Positions 6,001-27,080 of a DNA stretch of 33,625 nt are shown piece by piece. A program made the position numbers and the translations under genes. Origin of the DNA: Pirellulales bacterium (GTDB lineage: Bacteria > Planctomycetota > Planctomycetia > Pirellulales > DATAWG01). The first letter of the stretch is position 1; every line of letters starts with the position of its first letter. The notes below the pieces were generated by a model. The model was not told where the DNA came from. It did not search any database and was given only the letters and a program-made list of their open reading frames with translations. The DNA lies in the NCBI GenBank assembly GCA_035939775.1, contig DASZFO010000372.1, positions 1 to 33,625 of the forward strand, in the 5' to 3' direction.

Positions 6001-7129
6001 TCGGGATCGTCGGATCGGGATTGAAGGAGAATCCGCGGTTGCCGAAGACGGCGTATGGCCCCGAATGCACGAGCGAGCGATCGTTGGCGTAAACGACGTG
6101 GCAAGCCGTGCAGCCGCTCGAGCGATAGTCGCCTGGATGGTCCATTGTGCCGTGAAAATTGAGCGTGGGGTCGAAGAGCCGAGTCTTCTGCAAGCCGATG
6201 AAGGTCGGATCAGTGCGGTTTTCGGTCCCCAAGCCGCGATTGCTCAGCCGAGTGCGCGGGCGGCCGGGGTCTTCTTCGCGCTCGGGGATGCCGACCTCGG
6301 GACGGAAACGGCCGCCGCGCTCGAAGATGCGAAGGATGTTGCCTGGCTGCGAGATTTCGAATCGCGGCAACGGATCGAGATAAGGCACGACCCCTTTCTC
6401 GGCAATCTCGCGCTCGTTCGGCGGCGGCACGGTTTGAATCCGCTGCGGACTGCCGAGCATGCTGTAACTCTCGCCATAGTGCGGAGACTTGGTCGGGATC
6501 GAGCCGTTGTTGTATAGTGCGGCGCCCCAGAGCATGCAGCCGTGGGTCATCATGCTCTTGCGCACTTCGAGCACCTCGCGCTCGTGGCATACCCCACAAC
6601 TGATATGCGCCACGCGCAGGTCGCCGGGGTTCACGAAGCGAATGAATTCGGGAGACTCATGGTTCAAAAGCGTATACGAGCGCACCGGCTTGGCGCTGCC
6701 AGGCCAAGCGCCCGGGAACCGCGGCGCGACGTGAGCACATTCCTTCGTATCCGCCGCCGGATTGCCGCCGTGGCAATCGCAGCAACCCAATCGGACCGTC
6801 GCCTTGCCGTGCATGTCTTTCACGTTCTCATGGCAGACAATGCAGCCGCGGCTCTTGGCATAGGCGTCCGCTTCGGTCTGTTTGCTGAGATCGACGCCGA
6901 TCAGCTCGGGAGGGAATGGAAACGGCTCTTCGCCAGCGGGATTCTGTGGCCGAGCGAGTGGCGCAAGCGTCGCCGGTTGCAAGTTTGCGTCAGTCGTCGC
7001 GCGACTGCTCGCGCGAACGACATCATATTGAGGCTCGGCGGCCCGGCTCGATAGAGCCGCGGCGGCCGCCAGCGATAGCAGCACGGCGATTGCCAAGAGC
7101 CGTCGTGGTATGTAATTCCGTGATCCCAT
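3056..7129 (-). CDS. Giant decahaem cytochrome c with C-terminal LVIVD beta-propeller
   Basis: This is a 1357-residue exported protein. ATG 7129 is preferred over the upstream TTG 7153: an AAGGA ribosome site lies nine bases before it, and the protein then opens with a signal peptide ([18 protein letters not shown], Ala-rich cleavage zone). Ten CXXCH haem sites are visible in the first 850 residues, including CIVCH, CCDCH, CGVCH, CTACH, CLVCH, two CIDCH, CITCH, CFGCH and CTDCH. From about residue 960 to 1290 at least five LVIVD-type repeats follow (for example [20 protein letters not shown]), predicting a beta-propeller. The end is proline-rich. Its start overlaps the end of the beta-barrel-like gene upstream, so the two are co-transcribed. 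The likely role is periplasmic or surface electron transfer; the electron acceptor or substrate is unknown. Confidence 0.9.
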
Positions 7130-7138
7130 CAATGGACA

Positions 7139-7143
7139 TCCTT
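7139..7143 (-). promoter_or_regulatory. Ribosome binding site fixing the decahaem cytochrome start
   Basis: The minus strand reads AAGGA here, nine bases before ATG 7129. It lies inside the longer TTG-initiated frame, so it argues that translation begins at 7129 and not at 7153. Confidence 0.6.
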
Positions 7144-7149
7144 GTCGCG

Positions 7150-9540
7150 TCAATAGAGTAATTTCACATCAAGAAAGCTGGCGAACAGGGCGCCGATTCG
7201 GCCGGCTTGCGTTCGGTATATGTCTTCAAAACCTTGGCCGGGGATCAAGCTCTGAATCCCGGTGTCAATGATGCAATTGTTGTTGAGCCACGGACGATAC
7301 TCGAAGCCGAGGCCGAGGTCGGTGCCGATGCTCTGATGGATGTTGGGCTGAAACACGAACTGCTCGATCACGGCCGTTTCGTCGAACCAGAGGAAGTTGA
7401 CGTTGCTGATCACTTTCAGCTTTGGTGTGACCTCGAAATCCATGCCAAGATTGGCGATGAACACGCCAGGGTTCACGAAATTGGATTGACCCTCGGTCTT
7501 CGACGAGCGCAGATCCGGCACCAGGCTGAACGGTTGCTTCAGGTTCACGCCGAGCAGCTTGATCGGCTGCCGCTGCCAGTAGCTGAACGGCCCTCCGGCG
7601 AAGTTCGGATCATCGAGGATCGTGTCGAAACCATGAGCTTCGGTGTCGAACGGATTGCTGTCTCCACTCGCGTAAAAGATCGACGACCGGAATCGGATCC
7701 AATCGCTGTCGTACGACAATTCGACCGCCGCCATTTCAGCGCTGATCCTCTCCGGCTGCCCGGCCATCGGGTTCAGGCTGTCCTGGCCGAAGACCCAATA
7801 GAAGGCATGATCGACGTTCAGGCGGTTGATATGCCCGTCGCCGGCCCAGCCCAGATAACAAGCGTCGATCGTGTGCGGCTGGAAAATGCCGACCGGATCG
7901 GGGCGGACGAGGAAGCCGTTTTTGTCGTAGTGCAGGCTGGCGTCGTCATGGTTGTAGTGGATGCTGAGCTGCGTCGTGTAGCCGGGCCAAATAAAGTCCT
8001 GCCGATAATAGTTGGCGATCAACACCTTCTGTCCGCGGTCGTCGAACGTATTGAGATCGCTGTTCGTGTCTTTCTCAAGCTGATCGAAGAAGGCGACGTT
8101 GAACTGATCGCGGTTCGAGAGCCGAGTGCCGAACAGGCGGACGGCCCGATTCGTGTCGTCGAAGATGAAGCCGCGGAAATCGCTGTTGAAGGGCTGCGAG
8201 CCGGCGCGGAGGGAGACGAAATCGTAGTTCGGGCTTAAGTCGGCAAGCTTCGTTTCGGCGAACCATTCCTGGAGCGTGAACCACGTCCGCCCGCGTGTAT
8301 GCCCGCGAGTCACGTCCGGGCTGACGACCCCCAATTCTTCGACGTCGAGAAAGTTCACGTTAAAGATCGGCGTGAGCTTCAGTCGCCAATCGACGGGCTT
8401 GAATGAGGAATCGCCGTGCACGAGATCGAAGGAGACGCTCAGATTCTCCTGAAAGACGAACTGATTCGGGTTGCCGAAGAACTCGCTCTCGCCGGGGTTC
8501 GCGGTACTCTCGCCGCTAGGGGTCGGCACTTGCCGCGTCTCGAGCTGCGTGTCGCTCACGGCCGTGATATTGAGAAACGTATGCTGGCCGATGATCGGAT
8601 AGTCTCCCTTGAGCACGTTCTGGTTGTAGGAGTCCCAGCGGTCTCCTTCGACGTACGGATAGTCATCGATGAGCGGATGGCCTTTTCCGTAGCGGTCCCA
8701 GGGAGTGAATCCCAATCGCCAGCGGTCTTCCAACGGCACGAAGTCGCTCGTGCTCTGCCCTTCGCGCGGCAAGACGCCCGAGCGGCCGGTGAATCCCAAC
8801 GGCGGCGGCTCGGGATAGCGCAGCAATGTGCCCGGCACGATTGGCTCGACCGGCAGATCATCCCAAGGCGGCGGCAGCTCGGTCGGCGATTTCAGCACCG
8901 GCGGACTCGAATCGGACTGTCGGTTCGGCGCGTCGTTGAATGGCGCGCCGAGCGTCGTCTGCTTCGCGGCGGCCACGACCGTTGGCTGTATCGATCGAAA
9001 TGTTGTTTCTGGCGGCGGTCCGCCGATGGCTCGACCCCGATCGTCACCATGCGCGTCGGCCGGCGCCTCGAAGGTGGCTTGGACAACGCCATTCGCTCCG
9101 CCGCGCGAGTCACGGTCCGAGGCCAGATTCGTGAATTGGTTCGGCGGAGCGACGAACGGACTTGGCGCCGGCGCGGCGACCGGAGCGGACATGCTGTCCG
9201 AATAATCCCATTGCACATCGACGAACACGTTGGGAACTGGTGCTTGCCAGCTCGCTGCTGCCGCGCTGATTGGCACCGGCGAAGATTCCGGCGAATTCAT
9301 CGCTGAGCTGGCAGCCCATGTCGTTGCCGCGTCATTCGCTCGCGTCCCGCCGTGAAAGAGCAGCCAAAGTGCAACGACGAGGCACCACCCGCCGCGCCGC
9401 TTAAATCGCGGGGGTCTCTCAGCAATCGTCTCGATATGACGCACAATAGAAATGGCTGTCGTTCCCGTAGTTGCTCGACGCGCGAACTCGCGCGATCCAG
9501 TGCTCGCCGAAATTCGAGCTTGCTTGCATCGCCGCGACAC
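7150..9540 (-). CDS. Outer-membrane beta-barrel-like (porin-type) protein
   Basis: This is a protein of up to 796 residues. The start is uncertain: GTG 9540 gives a long N-terminus before the hydrophobic signal segment ([11 protein letters not shown], residues 52-62), while GTG 9444 would place it in a normal signal-peptide position; neither has a clear ribosome site. Residues of about 70-250 are Ala/Pro-rich and probably disordered. From about 260 onwards the sequence alternates short polar turns with amphipathic strands rich in Tyr, Phe and Trp ([30 protein letters not shown]) and ends in an aromatic residue (VKLLY), as outer-membrane barrels do. It is the first gene of a pair with the decahaem cytochrome. 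Together they resemble porin-cytochrome conduits in organisation, though the proteins are not recognisable MtrB or MtrA. Confidence 0.75.
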
Positions 9541-9767: not shown

Positions 9768-9830
9768 CGGCTTAACGACTGTGCTGGCCGAATCTTGAAG
9801 TAGGTGGACGGATCGGCAAGGAATCGACTC

Positions 9831-11858
9831 ATGGCAAAATCAGATCGAGTGCGCGGGCGGAAGCTCTCGATCGAGCGGCTCGAGCCGCGTTTGGCGCTGA
9901 ACGCGCAACCGGTGATCACGCCGAGCGACGTCAATAGTTTGCTCCAGCGCGCCGCCGCGGCCGCCTCGCGCAACGACGCGATCATCGCGGTGGTCGACCG
10001 CAACGGGAGCATCTTGGGAGTGAAGGTCGAGTCGGGCGTCAGCGTCTCGCTGCAAGGCCAGCCAGTCACTCCGGCAAACCAATTGAACGCGCTGGTGTTC
10101 GCCATCGACGGCGCGGTCGCCGAGGCCCGCACCGCGGCTTTGTTCTCGAACAACAACGCCCCGCTCACGTCGCGCACGATCCGCTTTATCAGCCAATCGA
10201 CGATCACGCAGCGCGAGGTCCAATCCGATCCCGATCTCAACGATTTGACTTCGCCCTATCAGGGTCCCGGCCTCATCGCTCCGGTGGGCTTAGGCGGAGA
10301 ATTCCCCGCAGGGATCATGAACACTCCGCAGGTCGATCTGTTCGGCATCGAGCTGACGAATCGCGATAGCCTACTCGACGCCGGGGCGGATGGAATCAAG
10401 GGAACCGCCGACGACATCGTGCTGCCGAATCGCTTCAATATCCCGACGGCGAATCTTGCCCTCGATCCCACTACATTAACGCCAATCACGTTGGTCGCGC
10501 CGGAATCGTATGGCTACGTTTCGCAGATTCTGGTCGATTCGCAGTCGCGCGGCGTGGCGACTTTGCCCGGCGGCGTGCCGCTGTTCAAGAACGGCGTGCT
10601 CGTAGGAGCGATCGGCGTTTTTTTCCCCGGCCCTTACGGCTATGCCGATTTCGAGCAGACGTTCAACACGATTCCTTCGAATAACGCTAATGCCGAGGCC
10701 GCCCGCGAGAATGGCGAGGTCAATTCGCCGTACACCGACTTGGCCGAATGGATGGCGTTCGCAGCGGCGGGCGGCACTCGCGCGACGGCGGCGGGGCAAT
10801 CGGGCTTGAGCGGTGCGCTGTTTCCGGTTCACACCGTCGGTGGAGTGCCCGAGGTTTCCGGCTACGGTCTACCGCTGGGGCAGATCAATCTGGCGGGCAT
10901 CACGCTCGACATTTACGGACCCAACGGCCCGTTCCTCGGCGTTCAAGAGCTTCGCCACGAGGCGAGCATCGCGGGAGTGGGCAATCCCAATAGCAGCTTA
11001 TCGCTTGGCGCATTCAATCCGGGCAATTCGCTGGCGCTCGATTCGCTCGCGCATTATGCGACCGGAACGCCGGTGCCCGACGGCTGGCTCGTCGTGCCGC
11101 ATGGGACGGACGTCGCCGGTCAGTATCAAATCATCAAGCAAGGTGTTCTGCAGGCAATGGCGACCCGCGCGCAGATTCGTCTGCCCCTCGGCACCCCGAC
11201 CGCGATGGTCTTTTCCGTGTCGGACTTGAATGGGAATCTGCTGGCGCTCTATCGGATGCCTGATGCGACCGTTTTCTCGATCGACGTGGCGGTGGCCAAA
11301 TCGCGCAACGACGCTTACTACGATGATCCGGCGCAACTTATTTCGGCCGACATGGTGAGCAACACGCCGGGTGGGCCGGCGGTGGTGCCGGCGGGCACGG
11401 CCTTCTCTTCCCGCACCTACCGCTTCCTCGCCGAGCCGCGGTATCCGATCGGCACCAGCGGCACTCCGCCCGGGCCGTTTTCGAGCTTGATCGATCCGGG
11501 CATCGATCCGACGACGGGAGACACGATCGGCACGCCGCTGCCAGCTTCCGCTTACTCCGGCATGACGACGAGTGTGCTCGGCTTTGCGGCATTCAATCCG
11601 AATCGCAACTTCCGCGATCCGAACAACATTGCGAACCAGGACGGCGTGGTGTTCTTCCCGGGCAGCTCGCCGCTATACATCGGCGGAGTCATTACGTTCG
11701 GCTTGGGCGTGAGCGGCGACGGCGTGGATCAGGACGACGTGGTCACGGCCGCGGCGATGGCCGGCTTCGCGCCCGTCCCGGCGATCCGGGCCGATCAATT
11801 CTTCGTGCGCGGCGTGCGCCTACCGTTCATGAGCTTCGATCGGAACCCGCAAGGCTAA
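9831..11858 (+). CDS. Secreted protein with two GlcG/HbpS-like haem-binding-type domains and LEPR motif
   Basis: This is a 675-residue protein. ATG 9831 has AAGGA eight bases upstream. The N-terminus RKLSIERLEPRLALNA is a variant of the LEPRxLL motif that marks many exported planctomycete proteins. Two domains resembling GlcG/HbpS (DUF336, known to bind or degrade haem or small metabolites) are visible. The first is near residues 30-125 (AIIAVVDRNGSILGVKVE, later FAIDGAVAEARTAALFSNN). The second is near residues 450-520 (MVFSVSDLNGNLLALYRMPD, then SIDVAVAKSRNDAYY). Between and after them lie Gly/Pro-rich segments such as GVFFPGPYGYADF. Haem or cofactor handling would suit the cytochrome-rich neighbourhood. 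The function is inferred from fold resemblance only. Confidence 0.85.
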   Translation: MAKSDRVRGRKLSIERLEPRLALNAQPVITPSDVNSLLQRAAAAASRNDAIIAVVDRNGSILGVKVESGVSVSLQGQPVTPANQLNALVFAIDGAVAEARTAALFSNNNAPLTSRTIRFISQSTITQREVQSDPDLNDLTSPYQGPGLIAPVGLGGEFPAGIMNTPQVDLFGIELTNRDSLLDAGADGIKGTADDIVLPNRFNIPTANLALDPTTLTPITLVAPESYGYVSQILVDSQSRGVATLPGGVPLFKNGVLVGAIGVFFPGPYGYADFEQTFNTIPSNNANAEAARENGEVNSPYTDLAEWMAFAAAGGTRATAAGQSGLSGALFPVHTVGGVPEVSGYGLPLGQINLAGITLDIYGPNGPFLGVQELRHEASIAGVGNPNSSLSLGAFNPGNSLALDSLAHYATGTPVPDGWLVVPHGTDVAGQYQIIKQGVLQAMATRAQIRLPLGTPTAMVFSVSDLNGNLLALYRMPDATVFSIDVAVAKSRNDAYYDDPAQLISADMVSNTPGGPAVVPAGTAFSSRTYRFLAEPRYPIGTSGTPPGPFSSLIDPGIDPTTGDTIGTPLPASAYSGMTTSVLGFAAFNPNRNFRDPNNIANQDGVVFFPGSSPLYIGGVITFGLGVSGDGVDQDDVVTAAAMAGFAPVPAIRADQFFVRGVRLPFMSFDRNPQG

Positions 11859-13345: not shown

Positions 13346-13480
13346 CGATGGGCGGCAAATGGCGAAAAGAGACCTGGGCGGCCATAGGTTCGGCATCTCT
13401 CAGAATAGCAGGCCAGGCCGGCGGCAAGTAGCTGGCGCTGAAAATTGACATTTTTCGCGGGCCGTGCTACAAAACGCCAT

Positions 13481-13573
13481 GTTGGAGTTCAGGCTTCAGC
13501 CTGTCTTGCGCACGCCACGGCGTCAGCGCTAACGTTCAACGAGTGCACTGCAGGCTAAAGCCTGAACTCCAAC
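13481..13573. repeat. 93-base MITE-like element with 23-base inverted ends
   Basis: The left end 13481-13503 and the right end 13551-13573 are reverse complements over 23 bases with one mismatch; the core reads GGAGTTCAGGCTTCAGCCTG. The 47-base centre has no reading frame. It fills the gap between the divergently oriented hydrolase gene and the cytochrome operon and ends 13 bases before that operon's first ATG, so it could affect its transcription or leader. Confidence 0.75.
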
Positions 13574-13586
13574 GTTTCCGAAAAGC

Positions 13587-14573
13587 ATGTTAGTCAACCG
13601 CCAGAATCTCGCATCGCATTACGGTTGGTGCGGTGTCTTTATCGTGGGAACGGTTGCGGCCATCGCGTGGTATGCGATTTTTAGCCGCGGTGCTGCCCAG
13701 TGGCCGGGGGGAAGCAGCTTGCCGGGGCTCGTCTGCGGCGCTCTGGCCGGGGCGATTATCTTGTTCGAGTTTCTCCTCTGGCCCCGCAAAACGCTGGTGC
13801 GGGTCTGGCGGATCGGCCGCACGCAAACCTGGATGCGAGCGCATATTTGGCTTGGGCTGTTGGCGGTGCCGTTGGTTGCCGTTCATGCCTGGAAAGAACT
13901 CGGCGGAACGCTCAGCACCATGCTCGTGGTGCTGTTTGCGATCGTGATCGCCAGCGGTGTTTTTGGCTTGGTGCTGCAACAGATTCTGCCGCGCGTGATG
14001 CTCGAACGCGTGCCCGCCGAGACGATCTACTCCCAAGTTGACCGCATGGCTCGGCAGTATTGCGACGAGGCGGATGAACTGGTGTCGGCGATTTGCGGTG
14101 TGCCGGCCGATGAGGACTCGAAATCGACATCGGTCGAACGCGGCGATCCGGTCGAGGCGGCGGTCGCGACGACTCACGTCACGATCGGCGCGATGAGGAG
14201 CATCGGGGCCGTCCGCGGTCGCGTTTGGCAGATGCAAGCGGCCGTGACCGCGGTTCCTGATTCGGGGGTGCTGCGGACGGCCTTTTCGTCGATTATCCGC
14301 CCTTATTTGCTCGCCGGCCGCAGGTCCGGATCGGTGTTGGCGAATGAATTACAAGCCGGAAGCTTCTTCGCAGGACTCAAGGGCAAGCTGCCCGCTCCAG
14401 CACACACGGCGGTCGATCAAGTCGAAGGGCTTTGCGACCAACGCCGGCAGTTCGATTTGCAAGTGCGGCTGCACGCCTGGTTGCACGGCTGGTTATGGGT
14501 CCATCTGCCGCTGTCGGTCGCGCTCGTGCTGCTGATGTTCGTTCACATCTTTGTCGCATTGAAGTACTGGTAA
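13587..14573 (+). CDS. Dihaem b-type cytochrome-like integral membrane protein
   Basis: This is a 328-residue protein with predicted membrane helices near residues 13-33, 46-66, 85-103, 109-131 and 303-325, plus a soluble loop of about 150 residues in between. His86 and His100 lie 14 apart on one helix, and His306 and His320 lie 14 apart on the last helix. This is the spacing by which two b haems are held by paired helices in cytochrome b561, NarI and ferric-reductase-like proteins. It is the first gene of the electron-transfer run, and the membrane decahaem protein follows after a short repeat. It probably passes electrons across the membrane between the iron-sulphur proteins or quinone and the c-type haems. 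The direction is unknown, and no exact family could be named. Confidence 0.8.
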   Translation: MLVNRQNLASHYGWCGVFIVGTVAAIAWYAIFSRGAAQWPGGSSLPGLVCGALAGAIILFEFLLWPRKTLVRVWRIGRTQTWMRAHIWLGLLAVPLVAVHAWKELGGTLSTMLVVLFAIVIASGVFGLVLQQILPRVMLERVPAETIYSQVDRMARQYCDEADELVSAICGVPADEDSKSTSVERGDPVEAAVATTHVTIGAMRSIGAVRGRVWQMQAAVTAVPDSGVLRTAFSSIIRPYLLAGRRSGSVLANELQAGSFFAGLKGKLPAPAHTAVDQVEGLCDQRRQFDLQVRLHAWLHGWLWVHLPLSVALVLLMFVHIFVALKYW

Positions 14574-14584
14574 GGTCAGAAACT

Positions 14585-14658
14585 GGGGTCAGAATTATTT
14601 ATCTTGAGCGAGCGATGGCTCCAGTTGGAATAACGGCGAGATAAATAGTTCTGACCCC
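14585..14658. repeat. 74-base inverted repeat (GGGGTCAGAA family)
   Basis: GGGGTCAGAATTATTTATCT (14585-14604) and its reverse complement at 14639-14658 match at 19 of 20 bases around a 34-base centre. GGGGTCAG ends are characteristic of REP/RAYT-type elements, but no transposase of that type is in the window. It occupies almost the whole gap between two genes of the electron-transfer run and would fold in the polycistronic mRNA. Confidence 0.75.
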
Positions 14659-14674
14659 TTTTTCTGGTTGACCC

Positions 14675-16222
14675 ATGCCGCGTGAAACTGGCAAGCAGCG
14701 AGCCTCCGGGATTCCGCTGGACTACTTTCGCCATCGCAATTCGCTCGATCGTGGCAAGCTGATTCTGGCCGCGGTCGTTGCGGCCGTCACGGCGGGGTGG
14801 CTTTCGGCCGGAAGTCTGTCCGGACACCGTGCAGCGGCTTGGTATTCCCCAGGACAAGTGAGCGCGGCCCACGCCATGTGGGAGAACGATTGCTCGGCTT
14901 GTCATGTCAGCTTTACACCGATTGCCGGCGATGCGGCAGCGGCCGAATTGTTCGGCGACAAGGCCGCGATCGACGCCAAGTGTCAAGCCTGTCACAACGT
15001 CGCAGGCAAAACGAACTCGCTCGGACATCACGCCTCGAAGGACCCGGCGATGCTCGCGTGTTCGAATTGTCATTTTGAGCACCGCGGGCGGACGGAATCG
15101 CTCGTGCGCATGGCCGACGCATCCTGCACGAGGTGCCATGCCGACATCGAGGCCCATCGCGAAGTTCCGTCACTTCGTCCGCAGTCAATCCAAAACGTCA
15201 GCCGGTTCGACGCGGAACATCATCCTGGGTTCCGCTCGATCGCGACCGACCCGCGGACGCTAAAGTTCACTACCGCTACGCACCATTTGCACCTGACGCC
15301 GGGCCTTGCCGCGGATGCCAAGCACCAGCCGGTGATGACCGTCGGCATGCTCAGCGCGGCCGACAAGACGCGGTATGCGCTGCCGGGACAAAAGGACGCC
15401 GATTTAGTTCAGCTTTCCTGCGGCTCCTGCCATCAACTGAGCGGGACGGTGCTCGGCGCGGGCACTGGCCGACTTCGCTGGCCAGTGCTACCCAGCGCGC
15501 CAGTGCCACCCAGTGAGTCGGCGGCGCCCAGCGCCTCAGTGAAATCGACAGGCGGCGCTTATATGCAGCCGGTCGTTTTCGAGAACCAATGCAGCGCCTG
15601 CCATCGGCTGACGATCAATCCGGGGCAGGACTTTAAATCGGACATGAAAGTCGCCGGCGACGTCGTAGCTCACCGGTTGCAACCGGCCCAACTTGCGACG
15701 GAGGTGCGCCGCTATTGGGGAGATCGGTATTTGCACGATCATCCCGCGCAGCTCGCGCGCAATTTGCCGCTGCCGAGCCATCCAAGGGAACTTGAAAACC
15801 GCGACGCCCGCGAATGGATCCGCGACAACGCTACCGGCTCCTTAAATCATTTGCGCACGGTATGCTCCGAGTGCCACGAACTTGGCGGTGTGGCTGCGGA
15901 AAAGCTGTCGCTTGACGGCGAGGCCCCAGGGATTCTCCCGCCACCGGTCCTTCCGGTGCAGGTTCCGCACCCATGGCTGGAACATGCGAAATTCGATCAT
16001 TCGGCCCACCGGAGCGTCAATTGCCGCGATTGCCATGCAGGAGCCTATCCGTCCGATGCCGGCGTTCAAGCGGGACCAAGTACCTCCGCGCCGATGATTC
16101 CCGGCCGCGAAACTTGCGTTCGATGCCACGGCCCGCGTGACGAATCATCCGCTCCGCCGCGCGGCGGGGCGCGATTCGATTGCGTTGAATGCCATCGCTT
16201 CCACAACCGCGACGAACCATGA
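14675..16222 (+). CDS. Membrane-anchored decahaem cytochrome c
   Basis: This is a 515-residue protein with one membrane helix near residues 28-48 and no clear cleavage site, so it is probably anchored with its body in the periplasm. Ten CXXCH motifs begin at residues 73, 103, 129, 151, 249, 306, 397, 450, 481 and 503. Extra histidines (HH, HLH) around residues 118-206 could be distal ligands. Residues of about 262-292 form a Pro/Ser/Ala linker encoded by a palindromic repeat (15462-15488) that appears to have inserted in frame. The stop overlaps the ATG of the NuoEF gene (ATGA at 16219), showing tight coupling. It probably accepts or donates electrons to the dihaem b protein. Confidence 0.92.
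   Translation: MPRETGKQRASGIPLDYFRHRNSLDRGKLILAAVVAAVTAGWLSAGSLSGHRAAAWYSPGQVSAAHAMWENDCSACHVSFTPIAGDAAAAELFGDKAAIDAKCQACHNVAGKTNSLGHHASKDPAMLACSNCHFEHRGRTESLVRMADASCTRCHADIEAHREVPSLRPQSIQNVSRFDAEHHPGFRSIATDPRTLKFTTATHHLHLTPGLAADAKHQPVMTVGMLSAADKTRYALPGQKDADLVQLSCGSCHQLSGTVLGAGTGRLRWPVLPSAPVPPSESAAPSASVKSTGGAYMQPVVFENQCSACHRLTINPGQDFKSDMKVAGDVVAHRLQPAQLATEVRRYWGDRYLHDHPAQLARNLPLPSHPRELENRDAREWIRDNATGSLNHLRTVCSECHELGGVAAEKLSLDGEAPGILPPPVLPVQVPHPWLEHAKFDHSAHRSVNCRDCHAGAYPSDAGVQAGPSTSAPMIPGRETCVRCHGPRDESSAPPRGGARFDCVECHRFHNRDEP
15462..15488. repeat. Palindromic repeat inside the decahaem cytochrome gene
   Basis: GCACTGGCC (15462-15470) and GGCCAGTGC (15480-15488) form a nine-base stem with a nine-base loop. 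A further CCAGTGCCACCC follows at about 15500, repeating the sequence CCAGTGCTACCC that ends the palindrome. The segment encodes a low-complexity linker with no haem motif. It looks like a dispersed repeat tolerated in the reading frame. Confidence 0.55.
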
Positions 16223-17988
16223 TCGTTCAAGAACTTTACAAGATTCAACACCGGCACGGCTTTCTCCCGGCCGACGAGTTGCGTGGATTGTCGGAGCGGA
16301 TGGCGGTGCCGCTTTATCGGTTGCACGAGGTGGCGAGTTACTTTCCGCACTATCGCTTGCAGCCGCCCTCGACGGTTGAAGTTCGGGTCTGCCGCGACAT
16401 GGCCTGCCACCTGCACGGCAGCACAGACTGCCGCAAAGCGCTCGAGCAGATAGCGAGCGAAATCGGCGGCTCGCAAGTGAAAGTGGATGGCGCTTCGTGC
16501 CTCGGGCGGTGCGACGGGCCGCCGGCAGTCGCCATCAACGATCAAGTGTACTGGGGCAAATCGGCGATGGAATTGGAGTCGATCATTCGAGGCGCGCTCG
16601 CGGGTCAGCCATTGCCCCACCAGCATGGCGACACGGGGCCGCTCGAATGGAAAATCGATCCTTATGCGGGAGAGCCGCTGTACGAGGTCGCCCGGCGGTT
16701 AATCGAATCCTGGAAGGCCGATCCCGACACGGACCGCCAGCGGAAGCGGATTCGACTCGGGGATCCGGTCCTCGCCGCGCTCGAAGCGGCCAAATTGCGC
16801 GGCATGGGGGGAGCGGCGTTTCCCACCTTCAAGAAATGGTCGATCGTCCGCGGTGCGCCGGGTTCGCCAAAGTATTCCGTTTGCAACGGCGATGAAAGCG
16901 AGCCGGGCACGTTCAAAGACCGCGAGTTGCTCCGCCGCGCGCCGCATCTGGTGATCGAAGGGATGATCGTGGGCGCGCTCGTTACCGGCTGTGAGCGCGG
17001 CTGGATTTTCATCCGCCACGAGTACGAGCAAGAGATCCAATGTGTTCGCCGCGCGTTGGCCGATGCCGAGCGACAAGGCGTTTGCGGCCAACGCCTGCTC
17101 GGTTCCGATCTTTCATTTCCGCTGGAGGTGTTCGTCAGTCCCGGTGGCTATATCTGTGGCGAGGAGACGGCGCTGGCCGAAGTACTCGAAGATCGCCGAG
17201 CCGAGCCGCGAAACAAGCCGCCGCTAATGTCGCTTGAAGGATTATTCGGCAAGCCAACTTCGATGAACAACGTGGAGACGTTTTCCTGGGTCCCCGCGAT
17301 TCTGACTCACGGCGGCGCCTGGTATCGCGATCAGGGGATCAATGGCGCCACGGGATTGCGGCTCCATTCGATCAGCGGCGATGTGAATCGGCCGGGAGTA
17401 TACGAGATCCCCTTCGGCCTGACGCTCGGCGAACTGGTGAACGGATTGGCCGGCGGAATCCGCGGCGGGCAGCGCCTCAAAGCGGTCGCCACGAGCGGCC
17501 CCTCAGGAGGTTTTCTCCCGCCGCAAATTCCGCTCCCCCGCGAATCGCACCATTTCACCGAAGGCCTTGTGAAGCGCAAAGTCGTCGCCGAGGGGGCCGA
17601 ATCGCTCGATCTGCTCACGATGCCGCTCGATCCGGATTTGTTTCGGCCATTCCCAGACTTTATGCTAGGGGCGGCCATCGTCGTGTATGGTGACCGAGCG
17701 AACCTGCTCGAACAAGCGCTCAACTGCGTCGAGTTCTTTCGCAACGAATCCTGCGGCAAGTGTGTCCCCTGTCGGATCGGCACGACCAAATTGGCCGCGA
17801 TGCTCCGCGAGCGCTTGCAAAGCAACGAATCGACCGATTTCAGCCTCGTCGGCGAATTGGCAGACGCGATGTTCACGACCTCAATCTGCGGCCTCGGCCA
17901 AGTCGCCCCCAGCCCGATCCGCTCCGTGATGAAATACTTTCCCGAGGAACTCTCTTGTCGTCCGAAGCTGAAGAATTCGAAGCCCTGA
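16219..17988 (+). CDS. NuoE-NuoF fusion: NAD(P)H-binding flavin/iron-sulphur subunit
   Basis: This is a 589-residue protein starting at ATG 16219, which overlaps the previous stop. Residues 1-130 are NuoE-like, with a thioredoxin-fold [2Fe-2S] site: Cys58 and Cys63 (CRDMAC), Cys94 and Cys98 (CLGRC). Residues of about 150-570 are NuoF-like: the FMN loop LRGMGGAAFPTFKKW (near 193), the NAD-binding CNGDESEPGTFKDR (near 222), GGYICGEETAL (near 309), and a [4Fe-4S] site Cys512, Cys515, Cys518 and Cys557 (SCGKCVPC, ICG). Such fusions occur in soluble NAD-dependent formate dehydrogenases and NADP-reducing hydrogenases. Here neither a catalytic dehydrogenase nor the membrane Nuo subunits are nearby, so it is likely the NAD(P)H port of the adjacent cytochrome system. 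It acts in the cytoplasm. Confidence 0.93.
   Translation: MIVQELYKIQHRHGFLPADELRGLSERMAVPLYRLHEVASYFPHYRLQPPSTVEVRVCRDMACHLHGSTDCRKALEQIASEIGGSQVKVDGASCLGRCDGPPAVAINDQVYWGKSAMELESIIRGALAGQPLPHQHGDTGPLEWKIDPYAGEPLYEVARRLIESWKADPDTDRQRKRIRLGDPVLAALEAAKLRGMGGAAFPTFKKWSIVRGAPGSPKYSVCNGDESEPGTFKDRELLRRAPHLVIEGMIVGALVTGCERGWIFIRHEYEQEIQCVRRALADAERQGVCGQRLLGSDLSFPLEVFVSPGGYICGEETALAEVLEDRRAEPRNKPPLMSLEGLFGKPTSMNNVETFSWVPAILTHGGAWYRDQGINGATGLRLHSISGDVNRPGVYEIPFGLTLGELVNGLAGGIRGGQRLKAVATSGPSGGFLPPQIPLPRESHHFTEGLVKRKVVAEGAESLDLLTMPLDPDLFRPFPDFMLGAAIVVYGDRANLLEQALNCVEFFRNESCGKCVPCRIGTTKLAAMLRERLQSNESTDFSLVGELADAMFTTSICGLGQVAPSPIRSVMKYFPEELSCRPKLKNSKP
17944..17948 (+). promoter_or_regulatory. Ribosome binding site supporting a TTG start
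   Basis: GAGGA lies six bases before TTG 17955, inside the end of the NuoEF gene. It decides the start of the following iron-sulphur/cNMP protein; the frame stays open far upstream, but that part is antisense-like, Arg-rich shadow sequence. Confidence 0.65.
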
Positions 17989-20327
17989 TCGGCGATCAGC
18001 TTGTGACCGTCGGGCGGTCCCATGCCGATTTGCTCCGCCAGGGGACGATCGACCTTGAGATCGACGGGCACAAGGTGACCACCTCGCGCGTCAAGACCTT
18101 TGCCGACGCCACGGGCAAGGTCATCTCGACGCGGCTGATGACGATCTACGACGCCGCCACTCAGCTATATGACGAGCATCTCAGGGAGAAAAACCCAATT
18201 CCGCTGCTCTGTCATCGCGAACACATGACTCCGGCTGCCGTCTGCCGCGTTTGTATGGTCGAGGTCAAGGGGCAGCCGCGCTTGGCCCCAGCCTGCCAGC
18301 GGCCGATCGAGCCGGGGATGACGGTCTCGACGATCAGCACCAGCCGAAAGGTGCAGTCGGCGGTGAAAATTCTCACCGAACTCCTCGTGGCCGATCATAT
18401 CCGCCCGCGCGAAACCGGTCGGCAATATGGCGACAACGAGTTGGCGCTATTGGCCGACCGCATGCAAATCTCGGAGCCACGATTTCCAAAGGCCACAAAC
18501 GACCGCGGCCAGGACGAATCGTCGCTGGTGATCGCAGTGGACCACAACGCGTGCATCCTGTGCGATCGCTGCGTGCGGGCCTGCGACGAGGTCCGCCGCA
18601 ACAACGTCATCGGCAGGATGGGGAAGGGCTATTCGGCCCGGATCGCCTTCGATTTGAACGACCCGATGGGGAATTCGTCGTGTGTGGCGTGCGGCGAGTG
18701 CATGATCTCCTGCCCGACCGGCGCCCTGACGAATCGGGCCGTAGTCGACCTTACCTCGGTGGTGGCCGATTCGCCGGGGGCGACGCTCGTCCCAGCCGCT
18801 GAACTGGCCGAGAATCCGCTTTTCTCCGGAATCTCGCGCCCGTTCCTGGAATGGAACCGGGGGGCCGTGATCCGACGGAGTTTCAAGAAAGGGGAAGTCA
18901 TTTGCCGTGAAGGGGAATTCGGCTCAACAGCGTTTGTGATGGAACGCGGCAAGTTCGAGGTCCGAATCCGCTCGCCGCTCAGCCACGTCGCCTCCGTGAA
19001 AAAGGGACTGTTGGGATTCTTCGGGCGATTGGCAAACGGGCTTACTCGCCGCGATGACGATCGAGCGGCCGGCGGACAAGCAAATCGATTTATCCACGTC
19101 GATGCGCCGGTTTCATTGGAGTATGGCGATCCGGTTGCGATTCTGACGCCCGACGACGTGATCTTCGGCGAAATGACCTGCATGAGCCATTATCCGCGAT
19201 CGGCCACGGTGACGGCCGCGGAAGATTGCACGGTGCTCGAGATTCTTCGCAACGTGCTCTATATGCTTCAGCGCAACAAGGCCTCGAAGCGCGTTCTCGA
19301 CGATCTCTATCGTCGCCGCTCGCTTGAGACCCACCTGAAAAGCGTGCGCATTTTTTCGGAGGGGCTAGCCGACAAAACGGAGTTCGGCCGGTTCGTCGAT
19401 TTCCTCCGCAATCGGGTACAGTTGATCCGCGTCCATCCGGGCCAAGTGATCTTTCGCCAAGGCGATCGAGCCGACCATTTTTACATGGTCCGCGTCGGCT
19501 TCGTCAAAGTTTCGCAGAGCCGGCTCGGCGGCGAGCACGTGCTGAATTACATCGGCCCTGGCGGCTATTTCGGCGAGATCGGTCTGCTAGCCCATCTGCC
19601 CGAGATTCAGGCACTGGCGGCAACAGGGGTGCGCACGGCGACTTGCACCGCGCTCGACCACGTCGATCTGGTGCGAGTCGGCGGCGATGATTTTCGGGAA
19701 TTGGTCGAAGCGTTTCCCACATTGCGGCGGCAACTGGCAAAGCTGGCCATCGAGCGGTTGGAAGAAAACGAACGGGTCCGCACGCAGATCGAACACGTGC
19801 CGCTGGCAGAATTCTTGAGCCAAGGATTGATGAACGCTCAAAGTCTGTTGGTGCTCGATTTGGAAAAATGCACCCGCTGCGACGAATGCACGAAGGCCTG
19901 CGCCGACGCTCACGACGGCGTGACGCGACTGATCCGTGAAGGCTTACGATTCGATCGGTTCCTGGTGACCAGCTCCTGCCGCTCCTGTTTGGATCCCTAT
20001 TGCATGGTCGGGTGCCCGGTTGGATCGATCCGAAGGCGGAACAGCCGCGAGATCGTCATCGAGGATTGGTGCATCGGCTGTGGCAAATGCGCTCAGAATT
20101 GTCCGTATGGCAATATCAACATGCACGGTTTTATCACGGGCGAGCAGGCGCCCGATCCGCAGCGGCCGGAGCGGATGATCCCCGTCGTGCGGCAGAAGGC
20201 CACGACCTGCGATTTGTGTGCCAGCGTCGATGGCCAGCCGAGCTGCGTTTACGCCTGCCCGCACGACGCCGCGCATCGGATGAGCGGCACGGAGCTGCTC
20301 GATTTGGTCGACCTACGGGAAGGATAG
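17955..20327 (+). CDS. NuoG-like iron-sulphur protein fused to two cNMP-binding domains and a four-cluster ferredoxin
   Basis: This is a 790-residue cytoplasmic protein starting at TTG 17955 and overlapping NuoEF by 34 bases. In order, it has a NuoG-type [2Fe-2S] domain (Cys86, 97, 100, 114) and a remnant of the His/Cys domain with the His kept but its cysteines missing (near residue 148). Then come two [4Fe-4S] sites (CILCDRCVRAC from 200; CVACGECMISC from 243). Two cyclic-nucleotide-binding domains follow, at about 295-435 (phosphate cassette FGEMTCMSHYPRSATV) and 476-590 (FGEIGLLAHLPE, with a short insertion before RTAT). The tail (639-768) resembles DmsB/HybA, with four cysteine quartets. 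No molybdopterin domain is present. It probably carries electrons from the flavin subunit towards the membrane cytochromes. Whether it binds cAMP or cGMP is unknown, but cassette 1 keeps its Glu and Arg. Confidence 0.92.
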   Translation: MSSEAEEFEALIGDQLVTVGRSHADLLRQGTIDLEIDGHKVTTSRVKTFADATGKVISTRLMTIYDAATQLYDEHLREKNPIPLLCHREHMTPAAVCRVCMVEVKGQPRLAPACQRPIEPGMTVSTISTSRKVQSAVKILTELLVADHIRPRETGRQYGDNELALLADRMQISEPRFPKATNDRGQDESSLVIAVDHNACILCDRCVRACDEVRRNNVIGRMGKGYSARIAFDLNDPMGNSSCVACGECMISCPTGALTNRAVVDLTSVVADSPGATLVPAAELAENPLFSGISRPFLEWNRGAVIRRSFKKGEVICREGEFGSTAFVMERGKFEVRIRSPLSHVASVKKGLLGFFGRLANGLTRRDDDRAAGGQANRFIHVDAPVSLEYGDPVAILTPDDVIFGEMTCMSHYPRSATVTAAEDCTVLEILRNVLYMLQRNKASKRVLDDLYRRRSLETHLKSVRIFSEGLADKTEFGRFVDFLRNRVQLIRVHPGQVIFRQGDRADHFYMVRVGFVKVSQSRLGGEHVLNYIGPGGYFGEIGLLAHLPEIQALAATGVRTATCTALDHVDLVRVGGDDFRELVEAFPTLRRQLAKLAIERLEENERVRTQIEHVPLAEFLSQGLMNAQSLLVLDLEKCTRCDECTKACADAHDGVTRLIREGLRFDRFLVTSSCRSCLDPYCMVGCPVGSIRRRNSREIVIEDWCIGCGKCAQNCPYGNINMHGFITGEQAPDPQRPERMIPVVRQKATTCDLCASVDGQPSCVYACPHDAAHRMSGTELLDLVDLREG

Positions 20328-20332
20328 AGATC

Positions 20333-21949
20333 ATGCGGTGGTTATTCGCAGCGATTGTCGCGGCGGCCACGATGGCTTTGGCCGCTTGGCTCGCTGCCGC
20401 CGACTCGACTCCCGCACCAATGGCTCCGGAAACGATCTCGTCGCCCAGTCCCACGTCGCACCCGACCGATCCCGCCTCTGAAACGACCGCATCGATCGCT
20501 CGACGCTTTCTTGGTGTCAGTTCCTGCGCCTCAGTGGCGTGCCACGGCGGCCCGATCTCGGCCGATCCGAGCGCCAAGTGGCGCAGTTCGTATACCGTCT
20601 GGGCCACGATCGACAAGCACAGCCGCGCGTTTTCCGTGCTCTTCGAGCCGCGCTCGAAGCGAATTGTCCAGTTGCTCGATCATCTGCCGAGCGTCGATCA
20701 GGCTCGGCCGTATCAGGAAGAGCGCTGTCTGGCCTGTCATTCGACCGGCCAAAGTTTCCAGAAGACGGACACCAGCATTCTGGCCGACGGCGTCGGCTGC
20801 GAACTCTGCCATGGCCCGGCCCAGAATTGGCTCAAGAAACACACGGAGCGAGCCTGGCTCGATTCTCGCGCCGCCAAGTTCGAGCCATTGCCGGACATGA
20901 CCGACACCCGCGACCTGCTCCCCCGAGCAATGGCTTGTGCGAAATGCCATGTCGGGTCACGAGAGCCAGGCCAGCCGGCCCGCGACGTGAATCACGACCT
21001 GATCGCCGCGGGCCATCCGCGGCTCGATTTCGAGTTCCACGCTTATTCGGGCGTAATGCCGAAGCATTGGACGGATGAACCAGGAAAGAAACCAAACTAC
21101 AAGACCGATCGCGAGACGCACGCCGCGGCCTGGGCCATTGGCCAAGCGGTCTCGGCGGAGGCGGCGCTTAAGCTCATCGCCGCTCGCGCGGTGGCGGACA
21201 AACCGCAATCGGTTGCTGCCGCGAAGACATTGCCGATCGCCCGCCATCCCGAATTCTCGGAATACGACTGCTACGCTTGCCATCATGAACTCAGCAGCAA
21301 GTTCCCCAGCAGCCGCCAGGCGCTTGCCCGAATGGATCCCAGCCATCATTCGCCTGGATCATTGCCGAGGAGTACGTGGTATTTCACATCTCCCCAACTG
21401 CTGAGCGACGCCCAGTCCGGGTTAGCACCGGCGGGCCAACTCGCGAAATCGCTAACCAAACTCATTGGCGGCACGTGGTCGCCGGACGATCCGTCGACAG
21501 CGGATCAAAATGTCGCGGAATTGGCCGCGTCCATGCGCCATCTGGCCGAGGCAGAAGCCAAAGCGTCATGGGACGAATCGATGATCGACCGGCTACTAGC
21601 CCGCGCGACCGATGTTTCCACACTCGCGCCGAATTGGGACAGCGCCGCGCAGCGGTTCCTCGCGATCGAGGCGCTGTTGGCGGCGCGGCGCGAGTTGCCT
21701 TCGCGATTGGGTCAAGCCGCGTCGGCCGAAGAACTTGAGATCGATCAGGCGCTCGGAGAAATTCACAAGCTCCTCGAATTCCGAATTGACGCCAGCACGG
21801 GGTCGAGCGAACCCGTCAAAGGGGCAACGGATCACGCCGCGCCGCGGATTGACAGCCCGCGCGGCTACGATCCGCTCGCCGTGCAACAGGCATTTTCTCG
21901 AGTCTTCGCGGCCATCGGCAAGACGCTGCGCGTCGGGGAGAGTAAATGA
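20333..21949 (+). CDS. Cytochrome c554-like multihaem protein
   Basis: This is a 538-residue protein. ATG 20333 follows GGAAGGA and a five-base gap from the previous gene. Residues 1-23 form a signal peptide or anchor. Haem sites: an unusual CX4CH (CASVACH, residue 65), then CXXCH at 132, 156, 202 and 313. GVGCELCHGPAQNWLKKH and the AGHPRLDFEFH segment are typical of the cytochrome c554/HAO-like superfamily. The C-terminal 200 residues have no haem sites and are helical and Ala-rich. It forms a pair with the next gene, which shares the same plan. It is probably periplasmic, either an electron carrier or the site of substrate turnover; catalysis cannot be claimed. Confidence 0.88.
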   Translation: MRWLFAAIVAAATMALAAWLAAADSTPAPMAPETISSPSPTSHPTDPASETTASIARRFLGVSSCASVACHGGPISADPSAKWRSSYTVWATIDKHSRAFSVLFEPRSKRIVQLLDHLPSVDQARPYQEERCLACHSTGQSFQKTDTSILADGVGCELCHGPAQNWLKKHTERAWLDSRAAKFEPLPDMTDTRDLLPRAMACAKCHVGSREPGQPARDVNHDLIAAGHPRLDFEFHAYSGVMPKHWTDEPGKKPNYKTDRETHAAAWAIGQAVSAEAALKLIAARAVADKPQSVAAAKTLPIARHPEFSEYDCYACHHELSSKFPSSRQALARMDPSHHSPGSLPRSTWYFTSPQLLSDAQSGLAPAGQLAKSLTKLIGGTWSPDDPSTADQNVAELAASMRHLAEAEAKASWDESMIDRLLARATDVSTLAPNWDSAAQRFLAIEALLAARRELPSRLGQAASAEELEIDQALGEIHKLLEFRIDASTGSSEPVKGATDHAAPRIDSPRGYDPLAVQQAFSRVFAAIGKTLRVGESK

Positions 21950-23457
21950 AATCGCGCCTCGCGCTAGTCCGACCTGGCATCGCCGCGGCGCTAGCGCTGC
22001 TCGCGCCGGCCGCTTGGTTCGGCTTCGGGCTGGGGGCCGGAGCAGACGGTCAAGGTGTCCCCGCACTCAATGCCGCAGAGAAGCCGGAATCGCCGTCGGC
22101 CCGATATATGGGGACCGCCTCCTGCTCGCTGTGCCACGACAACGGCTCCCCTCGATTCCCTACCGACCTGGTCAGTCTAAACGAGTATCACATCTGGGCA
22201 GCCGACGACAAGCAAGATCGCCACGCCGCCGACGTGCATCATTTGGCATATAAGGCGCTAGTCGGCCCTCGGGCGAAGGAAATCGAGCAGGCAATGGGGC
22301 GGCCCGACGGCTGGGCGACCACCGCCGAGAGCGGCTGCTTAAGTTGCCATTCCGCGAACCTGCACGCCAATAATTGCGATCACTCACTAAATATCCCGGT
22401 GGAACTCGCGCAAGGGGTCGGTTGCGAGGCCTGCCACGGCCCGGCATCGCTCTGGATCGACAAGCATTGGAAGCGCTCCGAGTGGCGCGACGACAAGCAG
22501 CTTTCCGCGGAGGCGAAGCAAGATCGCTACAAGTTGACGAACGTTCGCGATCCTGTCGCGCGGACGGAGCTTTGCCTTTCGTGCCATCTCGGCAATAGGA
22601 CGGAGGGAAAGTTCATTACACACGAAATGTTCGCCGCTGGCCATCCGCCGCTGCCGCCGTTTGAAATCGAGGCGTTTCTAGACAACATGCCGCGACATTG
22701 GCGGCCCGCCGCGGAAAAGCCGCCCGACGCGCAGGCGTATCTTGGCTTTCGTCCGCTCGAGCGAACGCGGGCAGTCGTCTTGGAAGGATTGATCGAATTA
22801 CGAGCTTCAATCCGATTGCTCGCCGAACAGACGAAGGAGTCCCGGCCTCCCAACGCCGAGCCGAATCGCGGCGTGTCAGATTTCGCGCTCTACGATTGCG
22901 CCGCCTGCCACCACGAACTCATCATTCCGAGCCAGCGGCAGGAGCGAGGCTACAATGACTTCGCTCCCGGCCGGCCGGCGCTGCGCTATTGGGCTTTGCC
23001 ACTGGCCGAGCTTGGCCTGGGCGCCGTCAAGCCGGATGATGCTGCGTCAGATCGGACAAAGCTCGAAGCGATTCTGTCGCCACTGGCGGCCGCTGCAAAC
23101 GAATCACCGTTCGGCCTGCCGGCTGCGATTGGCGCTGCGGCGCACAAAGTCGCTGCCGAACTGGACAAGTCGATCACGTCACTCGCGGCGAAAGATTTTG
23201 ACACGGCCAGCGCCAAACGGATGCTCGCTCAGGTGTGCCGAATTGGCAGCGATTCGCCGCTGGATTACGATTCGGCGCGGCAAATGACGTCGGCGATCGA
23301 GGCAATCGTTGCCGATTTGGGAGACAAGCTCGACACAAACTCCGTCGCAGCGGCCGAGTCGCTCTTGCGTGGGACGTCATTGACCAACACTTCGGGTTTC
23401 GACCCCGAAGACTTCCGCGCCAAGCTCAAAAACCTCGCCAATGCTTTGGCACATTAG
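21946..23457 (+). CDS. Cytochrome c554-like pentahaem protein
   Basis: This is a 503-residue protein whose ATG overlaps the previous stop (ATGA, 21946-21949). Residues 10-32 form a signal peptide or anchor. CXXCH motifs start at 60, 131, 160, 210 and 318. The order CSLCH, CLSCH, GVGCEACHGPASLWIDKHW, ELCLSCHLGN, AGHPPLPPFEIEAF and YDCAACHHEL follows the preceding protein motif by motif, so the two are diverged paralogues. The C-terminal part is again haem-free and helical. Here the first site is a normal CXXCH, whereas its partner has CX4CH. It is the last gene of the electron-transfer run. Confidence 0.9.
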   Translation: MKSRLALVRPGIAAALALLAPAAWFGFGLGAGADGQGVPALNAAEKPESPSARYMGTASCSLCHDNGSPRFPTDLVSLNEYHIWAADDKQDRHAADVHHLAYKALVGPRAKEIEQAMGRPDGWATTAESGCLSCHSANLHANNCDHSLNIPVELAQGVGCEACHGPASLWIDKHWKRSEWRDDKQLSAEAKQDRYKLTNVRDPVARTELCLSCHLGNRTEGKFITHEMFAAGHPPLPPFEIEAFLDNMPRHWRPAAEKPPDAQAYLGFRPLERTRAVVLEGLIELRASIRLLAEQTKESRPPNAEPNRGVSDFALYDCAACHHELIIPSQRQERGYNDFAPGRPALRYWALPLAELGLGAVKPDDAASDRTKLEAILSPLAAAANESPFGLPAAIGAAAHKVAAELDKSITSLAAKDFDTASAKRMLAQVCRIGSDSPLDYDSARQMTSAIEAIVADLGDKLDTNSVAAAESLLRGTSLTNTSGFDPEDFRAKLKNLANALAH

Positions 23458-26545: not shown

Positions 26546-26624
26546 CTCTGAACACCTTGGATGGTAAAAGGGTGCTTTGGATCGTCGCGCAACTTGATCG
26601 CCGACAAGAGCGATCTAGGGGGAG

Positions 26625-26652
26625 CTATCGACTATTCAAAATGAGGGCTTTA
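26625..26652 (-). promoter_or_regulatory. Sigma-28 (FliA)-like promoter of flagellin
   Basis: On the minus strand the sequence reads TAAAGCCC, 12 bases, GTCGATAG, close to the FliA consensus TAAAGTTT-N11-GCCGATAA. It lies about 80 bases before the flagellin ATG, giving a leader of roughly 70 bases. Spacing is one base longer than the consensus. Confidence 0.6.
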
Positions 26653-26721
26653 GGTAAAATAAGGAATTCCACCAATCCTGCACTCCAGAATCTATTTCGG
26701 CAGGCGAATTGGCAAAGACCA

Positions 26722-26750
26722 AATAAAACAACCCTCTTGGGTGTGTTGCA
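26722..26750 (-). terminator. Weak terminator-like hairpin after csrA
   Basis: On the minus strand, ACACACCC and GGGTTGTT can pair imperfectly around AAGA, followed by TTTATTT. It lies about 60 bases after the csrA stop and before the flagellin promoter. The stem is short and contains a bulge, so the call is tentative. Nothing else is seen in the csrA-flagellin gap. Confidence 0.3.
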
Positions 26751-26805
26751 AACTGGTCCGCCGCGCGTGCGCGCCGCGCTAATCGCTACAAACGAGAAAG
26801 TCGGC

Positions 26806-27063
26806 TCAGCTTTTCCCGCTTGGCCCGGGCTGAGGGCGATCGCCGGCGGGTTTCCCCAAGGCCTGCGTATCCCTCGGTTCCAACCGGCTCGCGCGGAGGT
26901 TTTCGCGCTGAATCGCGTCGTAGACCTCCTGGCGGTGCACGGGGATTTCCGCCGGGGCGTTGATCCCTAGCCGCACCTTATCGCCGCGAATATCGACAAT
27001 CGTGATGACGATGTTATCACCGATCACGATGCTTTCGTCGCGCTGTCTCGACAACACAAGCAT
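26806..27063 (-). CDS. csrA: CsrA carbon storage/translation regulator
   Basis: CsrA is a small dimeric RNA-binding protein that binds GGA motifs in mRNA leaders and usually blocks translation. This 85-residue protein carries the whole conserved core: [16 protein letters not shown], the strand [20 protein letters not shown], and the RNA-binding helix [17 protein letters not shown]. It is longer than usual at the C-terminus by about 20 polar residues ([20 protein letters not shown]), which may be an unstructured tail. A strong GGAAGGAG site precedes the ATG. It starts 17 bases after fliW ends, so the two form an operon, and flagellin follows on the same strand. Confidence 0.96.
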
Positions 27064-27080
27064 CGGTGGCTCCTTCCTAA

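Follow-up and report, generated by a model that had tools for sequence, protein, structure and literature searches.

A conserved gene locus that may carry electrons from NADH to the outer membrane through an iron–sulfur protein with cyclic-nucleotide sensor domains

Introduction

NuoEF-type modules form the NAD-linked input of formate dehydrogenases, hydrogenases and complex I, and multihaem cytochromes with membrane b proteins or outer-membrane barrels form the other end of several described electron-transfer systems. The Geobacter extHIJKLMNOPQS clusters combine an outer-membrane barrel, the multihaem cytochrome ExtM, the decahaem ExtN, the pentahaem ExtKL and a b cytochrome with a Rieske protein and a rhodanese; the part of that report drawn on here describes neither NuoEF nor a cyclic-nucleotide protein (PMC5877670). 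In Kuenenia, Kustd1480-1485 and Kuste4569-4574 are Rieske/cytochrome b complexes with a flavin adenine dinucleotide (FAD) NAD(P) reductase, as given in the cited sections (PMC12954380). Clusters in Verrucomicrobia place a novel porin beside multihaem cytochromes, and extracellular electron transfer has been proposed for them in the excerpt cited (PMC5615132). Here, we compare with these systems a run of six genes (A–F) and three neighbours (G–I) on contig DASZFO010000372.1 of a Pirellulales bacterium; the whole stretch analysed, 33,625 nucleotides long, is called the window, and all coordinates are window positions.

The locus is built of known modules, and its combination of NuoEF with a cyclic-nucleotide iron–sulfur (Fe-S) protein occurs in none of the compared systems as far as the cited texts describe them. 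Protein C aligns best to the beta subunit of tungsten-containing (W-) formate dehydrogenase (7e5z_B, E 1.3e-90) and also to NuoF, and residues 81-268 of D align to the W-formate dehydrogenase alpha subunit. Unlike such input modules, the run carries no molybdopterin, NiFe or FeFe site, D adds two sensor domains and a HycB-type ferredoxin, and the partner genes encode b- and c-type cytochromes. The likeness to ext, judged from the portion of the source cited above, lies in the barrel, the multihaem, decahaem and pentahaem cytochromes and the b cytochrome, with G weakly ExtM-like; no protein reaches an Ext NCBIfam cut-off, G falling far below that of the ExtM family NF040943 (64 bits against 800 bits) and H, B and E having no Ext-family match. 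With the Kuenenia complexes, as partially described, the locus shares its phylum, Planctomycetota, and a layout in which a cytoplasmic module active with NAD(P) would be linked through membrane b haems to multihaem c subunits. The Rieske/b6-type proteins and the FAD NAD(P) reductase are theirs, the cited sections describe no sensor domain there, and A–I have no Pfam match to a Rieske protein, the Cytochrom_B family or an FAD NAD(P) reductase; the anammox Rieske/b complexes were set aside as a counterpart for this difference. By their description, as excerpted, the Verrucomicrobia porin clusters differ in the eight haems of their periplasmic partner and in a predicted count of 20 or more membrane strands (PMC5615132).

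The open-access literature searched gave no description of D or of the gene set, and no named counterpart. A, B and H have no close characterised match by sequence in the PDB, in line with a preliminary description of the window, made from the letters alone, which knew of no named complex with this composition. We lean towards the view that the locus encodes a transmembrane complex that oxidizes NADH and passes the electrons to a haem chain in the periplasm and outer membrane, with the flow under cyclic-nucleotide control.

Results

The six-gene run and its Fe-S hub

Six genes open on the + strand at 13587-23457, where the preliminary description had placed them, and encode the following proteins and, within D, the following domains.

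A, 13587..14573, + strand: 328-residue dihaem b-type membrane protein with four invariant His (H86, H100, H306, H320)
B, 14675..16222, + strand: 515-residue decahaem cytochrome c, anchored to the membrane near its N-terminus (residues 29-47)
C, 16219..17988, + strand: NuoE-NuoF fusion, 589 residues from ATG 16219 (the longest open reading frame starts at 16189)
D, 17955..20327, + strand: 790-residue Fe-S hub with two cyclic-nucleotide-binding domains
D, N-terminal NuoG/HoxU-type region, 18042..18764, + strand: one 2Fe-2S and two 4Fe-4S clusters; Fer2_4 and Fer4; HoxU and FeFe_hydrog_A6 matches
D, cyclic-nucleotide-binding domain 1, 18852..19259, + strand: PF00027; cassette FGEMTCMSHYPRSATV; E406 and R415
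D, cyclic-nucleotide-binding domain 2, 19395..19769, + strand: PF00027; E541 and R560
D, C-terminal HycB/DmsB-type ferredoxin, 19848..20309, + strand: 16 Cys (four 4Fe-4S clusters)
E, 20333..21949, + strand: 538-residue pentahaem c554-like cytochrome with one CX4CH and four CXXCH motifs and a signal-like N-terminus; PF13435
F, 21946..23457, + strand: 503-residue pentahaem c554-like cytochrome with five CXXCH motifs; PF13435

A 101 bp gap separates A from B; beyond it B and C overlap by 4 bp, C and D by 34 bp and E and F by 4 bp, and D and E are 5 bp apart, in agreement with the earlier count of four in five junctions that overlap or lie within 6 bases. The start of D is TTG 17955, with a GAGGA ribosome-binding-like site before it. 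The c-haem motifs of the run number 20 (ten CXXCH in B, four CXXCH and the CX4CH in E, five CXXCH in F), the figure first estimated. The other protein assignments of the preliminary description were likewise borne out for C, in which Pfam and NCBIfam both recognize NuoE and NuoF, for B, which has a single N-terminal membrane segment and its ten motifs, and for E and F, whose PF13435 matches fit c554-like multihaem proteins.

The assignment that changed is that of D, described at first as NuoG-like. Similarity to HoxU, NuoG and group A [FeFe] hydrogenase is confined to residues ~78-266, so that only the first third is NuoG-like; an ordinary NuoG is ruled out by the limited match and the lack of a NuoG molybdopterin-type body. 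Residues ~300-605 match PF00027 (E 1.6e-33) in three stretches, domain 1 being interrupted by an insert, and residues 632-785 match HycB/DmsB-type four-cluster ferredoxins. Conservation was counted over 97 relatives of at least 650 residues, five duplicated loci being counted too, as they were for A, B, C and E. Glu406 and Arg415 of domain 1 are each kept in 97/97, as is Glu541 of domain 2, with Arg560 in 92/97. Together with the PF00027 match, these cassette residues place D in the cyclic-nucleotide-binding family; the commonest cassettes read LFGEMTCMS[LF]YPRSATV, which looks like the textbook phosphate-binding motif of CRP and PKA. None of the 16 C-terminal Cys falls below 93 of the 96-97 filled rows. 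An N5-like cluster has its Cys ligands in 63/95 rows, and the window's D probably lacks this cluster because Arg152 and Asn161 stand in their place. An alignment of D took in 28 of 32 sequences (31 loci and the window), leaving out L048 (partial), L067, L068 and L069.

Within the insert of domain 1 (residues ~345-390) lies a basic stretch of amphipathic appearance, seen in relatives too, which may serve for docking or for contact with the membrane.

Conservation and co-occurrence

The survey covered the window, 31 loci from Planctomycetota and a further 80, the best of 573 that were confirmed. The recorded phyla of these 80 are Acidobacteriota (42), Planctomycetota (33), Rokubacteria (three) and Actinomycetota and Pseudomonadota (one each), the last two labels being doubtful. 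Cultured carriers of D include Tautonia sociabilis (L082), Rhodopirellula sallentina (L126), Roseiconus nitratireducens (L129) and Neorhodopirellula pilleata (L132). Of the 80 loci, 75 have C beside D, 65 have A, 64 have B, 58 have E, 30 have G, 25 have I and 24 have H; among the 41 whose stretch is 20 kb or longer, the counts were 40 for C, 37 each for A and B, 34 for E, 21 for G, 20 for H and 19 for I. The gene orders A-B-(E)-C-D or E'-C-D-A-B are found across Planctomycetota, Acidobacteriota and Rokubacteria, Acidobacteriota having E'-C-D-A-B, often followed by G' and H'. Nuo-like and cytochrome genes are widely linked, the opposite of the unlinked neighbourhoods that would have spoken against the run as first described. 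Against the linkage, some C-D pairs stand alone within long stretches (L083, L084 and L046).

Co-occurrence was also seen at the level of whole genomes. D is present in 25/392 Planctomycetota genomes (21/267 by genus) and its spread is patchy, with four carriers among the 39 nearest genomes, the window's included. A is found in 28/392 genomes, among them 25/25 with D (p 1.6e-36); G is found in 38/392 and H in the identical 38 (p 9.5e-54), and D and G co-occur in 22/392 (p 8.2e-23), where the Fisher tests treat related genomes as independent, so that the p-values overstate the certainty and not the pattern. A chance neighbourhood is ruled out by this co-occurrence and by the recurrence of the locus in Planctomycetota, Acidobacteriota and Rokubacteria.

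Five loci, L080, L112, L119, L146 and L128, come from metagenome-assembled genomes whose labels (three Kuenenia, one Rhodanobacteraceae, one Actinobacteria) conflict with their position in the D tree; they are probably mislabelled bins or transfers.

NuoEF as an add-on module

C contains the Pfam domains 2Fe-2S_thioredx, Complex1_51K, SLBB and NADH_4Fe-4S, and all eight of its Fe-S Cys are kept (79/79), which gives it the NuoE and NuoF parts of complex I with their flavin mononucleotide (FMN) and Fe-S ligands. The same locus holds no full-length NuoG and no complex I membrane arm, and no catalytic molybdopterin or NiFe subunit domain, as in NAD-linked formate dehydrogenase or NiFe hydrogenase, was found in the six run proteins. 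The preliminary description, which spoke of a set without Nuo membrane subunits, is correct for the locus and not for the genome, where NuoH occurs twice, on contigs C148 and C62.

NuoEF had been read as part of a self-contained set, and here the picture differs. We compared long and short forms of D over 107 of the 112 loci, the five omitted being duplicates of other loci; tblastn was added for this comparison because the locus gene picker is crude and at times picks antisense frames. The long form, with the NuoG/HoxU-type N-terminus, accounts for 89 of the 107, and 83 of these 89 have NuoEF within the stretch, three of the remaining six being contigs shorter than 7 kb. Among the 18 short-form loci NuoEF is found in none, yet A and B are each present in 16. 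The association of long D with NuoEF is strong (Fisher p 1e-15), although the short forms were drawn from Planctomycetota samples only and the best-80 set favours long forms close to the window. On a D tree, which is quick, unrooted and long-branched and was used solely for this purpose, the long/short label requires three changes. NuoEF and the NuoG-type end of D thus behave like a single module for docking. On the simplest reading, the N-terminus of D would dock NuoEF, and the sensor-plus-HycB part would dock A and B and could take electrons from something else.

The membrane protein A and the multihaem cytochromes

A belongs to no Pfam or NCBIfam family. It has hydrophobic segments, with a soluble insert of ~150 residues between helices, and its H86, H100, H306 and H320 are invariant in 83/83 rows. 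They form two pairs, each 14 residues apart (H-x13-H), which is the expected spacing for two stacked b-haems; with four axial-type His on two predicted helices, A has the make-up of a dihaem transmembrane cytochrome b, as had been proposed. A shares this arrangement of His pairs over two helices with the NOX, STEAP and cytochrome b561 dihaem proteins, but they do not match A in sequence, and the soluble insert is peculiar to A. The AlphaFold model of A is confident, with a predicted local distance difference test score (pLDDT) of 87.3. Foldseek gave a best E of 0.65, and VIA-align placed STEAP2, cytochrome b561, NOX5 and SpNOX at Z 8.4-9.0, level with unrelated helical bundles of sensors and transporters and thus within noise. 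We regard these model-based matches as a lead and claim no fold membership from them.

Across the 77 rows of B, 75-77 of those filled retain each of the ten CXXCH motifs and of ten further His, and because the ten motif His are matched by ten extra conserved His, the pattern suggests that B is a wire of all bis-His ligated haems. In the E family, the Cys and His of the CX4CH motif are kept in 88/88 and five extra His in 80/88 to 88/88; E matches PDB 1bvb (E 7.6e-7).

The outer-membrane neighbours and other features of the window

The run had been read as self-contained. It does not travel alone, however, for three further genes at 3056-11858 recur with it.

G, 3056..7153, - strand: 1365-residue decahaem cytochrome, weakly ExtM-like, with C-terminal LVIVD repeats (PF08309)
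H, 7150..9540, - strand: 796-residue outer-membrane beta-barrel, directly upstream of G
I, 9804..11858, + strand: 684-residue HbpS-like protein, probably secreted; PF03928 in three stretches

G has ten CXXCH motifs and overlaps H by 4 bases, which gives the pair the barrel and adjoining same-strand multihaem cytochrome of a porin–cytochrome conduit; H lies directly upstream of G on the same strand in 22 of the 28 loci that have both. The AlphaFold model of H predicts ~18 strands in residues 321-795, and this part is confident, with most of the first 315 residues at low confidence and a mean pLDDT of 61.9. By Foldseek it matches AlgE (E 1.2e-16) and other outer-membrane porins; H was rejected as a known porin of porin–cytochrome systems, as it has no NCBIfam match and no PDB sequence match. 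G, H and I recur beside D in other genomes, and in genomes without a close D they make up a cluster of their own. Of 12 inspected stretches with G/H but no close D, two hold a divergent two-sensor Fe-S protein (L159, 15104-19898; L162, 2508-6820), so that the sensor domains are still present in these relatives of D, and cytochromes with 13 and 18 haems lie near it and G/H.

Two inverted repeats were seen by eye. The one at 13480-13580, directly upstream of A (ttggagttcaggcttcagcctg ... caggctaaagcctgaactccaac), looks like a REP (repetitive extragenic palindromic) or MITE-type (miniature inverted-repeat transposable) element; the other, in the A-B gap at 14588-14662 (ggggtcagaattatttatct ... 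agataaatagttctgacccc), is accompanied by a T-run and might represent either an element or an intra-operon terminator. Beside the electron-transfer locus, at 24194-27560 on the - strand, lie a flagellin of 783 residues with a repetitive middle and FliW.

Discussion

The proposed electron path

If the encoded proteins form a single complex, electrons from NADH would enter the FMN and Fe-S clusters of C, pass to the NuoG/HoxU-type clusters of D and on to its HycB-type clusters, and then cross the membrane through the two stacked b-haems of A to the decahaem B. From B they would move through the pentahaem proteins E and F to the decahaem LVIVD protein G, paired with the barrel H, and reach an acceptor on the cell surface or beyond it. 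What the sequences show is the set of genes, the ligands of the cofactors, the intact cassettes, the linkage across phyla and the co-occurrence in genomes; a single complex, the direction of flow, the role of A as a wire and not as a quinone enzyme, the gating and the extracellular acceptor are inferred. Because D has two sensor domains between cytoplasmic clusters at both ends, a bound nucleotide could switch the wire on or off or bring about its docking. Outward flow would run downhill in potential and would also follow the membrane charge; reductant would then be discarded and its energy not conserved; a cyclic-nucleotide switch on such a valve would make physiological sense. Tentatively, and with less confidence than in the path as a whole, we propose a cyclic-nucleotide-gated wire shared by Planctomycetota, Acidobacteriota and Rokubacteria, in which a second messenger binds D within the electron path and switches NADH flow to the outer-membrane haem conduit, and in which the inputs are interchangeable, NADH-dependent with a long D and NuoEF and NADH-independent with a short D.

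Several observations weigh against this path. The structural matches of A fall within noise, and of the 33 Planctomycetota loci among the best 80 of 573, 13 show no A within their stretch. The window's D and roughly one in three relatives have lost the N5-like ligands. At the outer-membrane end, a barrel of ~18 strands need not house a cytochrome, three of the 25 genomes with D lack G (G044, G076 and G152), and 16 of the 38 G/H genomes have no D match at the 1e-60 cut-off, so that G/H also occurs without the long complex. Several carriers, moreover, are aerobic isolates, for which an anaerobic acceptor is not obvious.

Alternative explanations

Two alternatives keep the complex and alter a single part of it. 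Domains of the CRP superfamily often change ligand, and those of D might be structural spacers or bind something else, leaving the complex without nucleotide control. We judge this unlikely, though of the alternatives it is the one to be taken most seriously: the Glu and Arg that contact the cyclic nucleotide are retained in both cassettes, the sensor domains persist in the divergent relatives, and matches to class III nucleotide cyclases number four in the genome. Likewise, a HycB-type subunit with a dihaem b protein is the layout of the quinone-linked formate dehydrogenase-N and similar enzymes, and the C-terminus of D is of the HycB/DmsB type; the same complex could carry a quinone site on A and be, instead of a direct wire, a respiratory enzyme of the NADH:quinone or quinol:cytochrome kind. 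This appears slightly less probable, as A matches no solved quinone-reactive b subunit by sequence and its redox-relevant fold neighbours among the top rows are STEAP2, cytochrome b561 and NOX only, themselves within noise.

The remaining alternatives assign the parts differently. E and F are c554-like and many loci have no G/H nearby, which would suit terminal reductases for periplasmic nitrogen or oxygen species, with the outer-membrane part unrelated; the five haem motifs and five extra conserved His of E, however, fit all bis-His haems, G/H co-occurs with D genome-wide, and we think such a role improbable. Inward flow, in which the haems take electrons from a donor in the periplasm or outside the cell and NADH is the product, is slightly more doubtful still. 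All the redox carriers are reversible in principle, and the preliminary description also allowed for the reverse direction, but reduction of NAD+ from c-haems would oppose both the potential and the membrane charge, and no gene here supplies the drive. Least probable is a second complex I, with its membrane arm elsewhere in the genome, to which C and the N-terminus of D would contribute the NADH module. A candidate arm does exist, since C62 (L167, G000) carries at 3167-9959 a second NuoH with NuoJ- and NuoL/M/N-like neighbours, with no NuoE, F or G assigned within this set and no NuoF found on C62. Over the 107 D loci, however, C accompanies long D, usually with A and B too, and D has no NuoG molybdopterin-type body. 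Elsewhere in the genome, contig C148 holds a separate NuoE/F/G set, molybdopterin PF00384 proteins occur on other contigs only, and no match to the NiFe hydrogenase family PF00374 was found.

Implications

The fuller finding may be a conserved cyclic-nucleotide-sensing electron-transfer system that leads from NADH to the outer membrane. If the proposed path is true, phyla that are common in soil and water and rarely deemed electroactive would have a dedicated route for electrons from NADH to the cell surface. It would place a second-messenger sensor inside an electron-transfer chain, and respiration could then be switched at the protein level with no transcription delay. Furthermore, electron disposal at low oxygen in Planctomycetota and Acidobacteriota would become a testable gene set, found in cultured strains.

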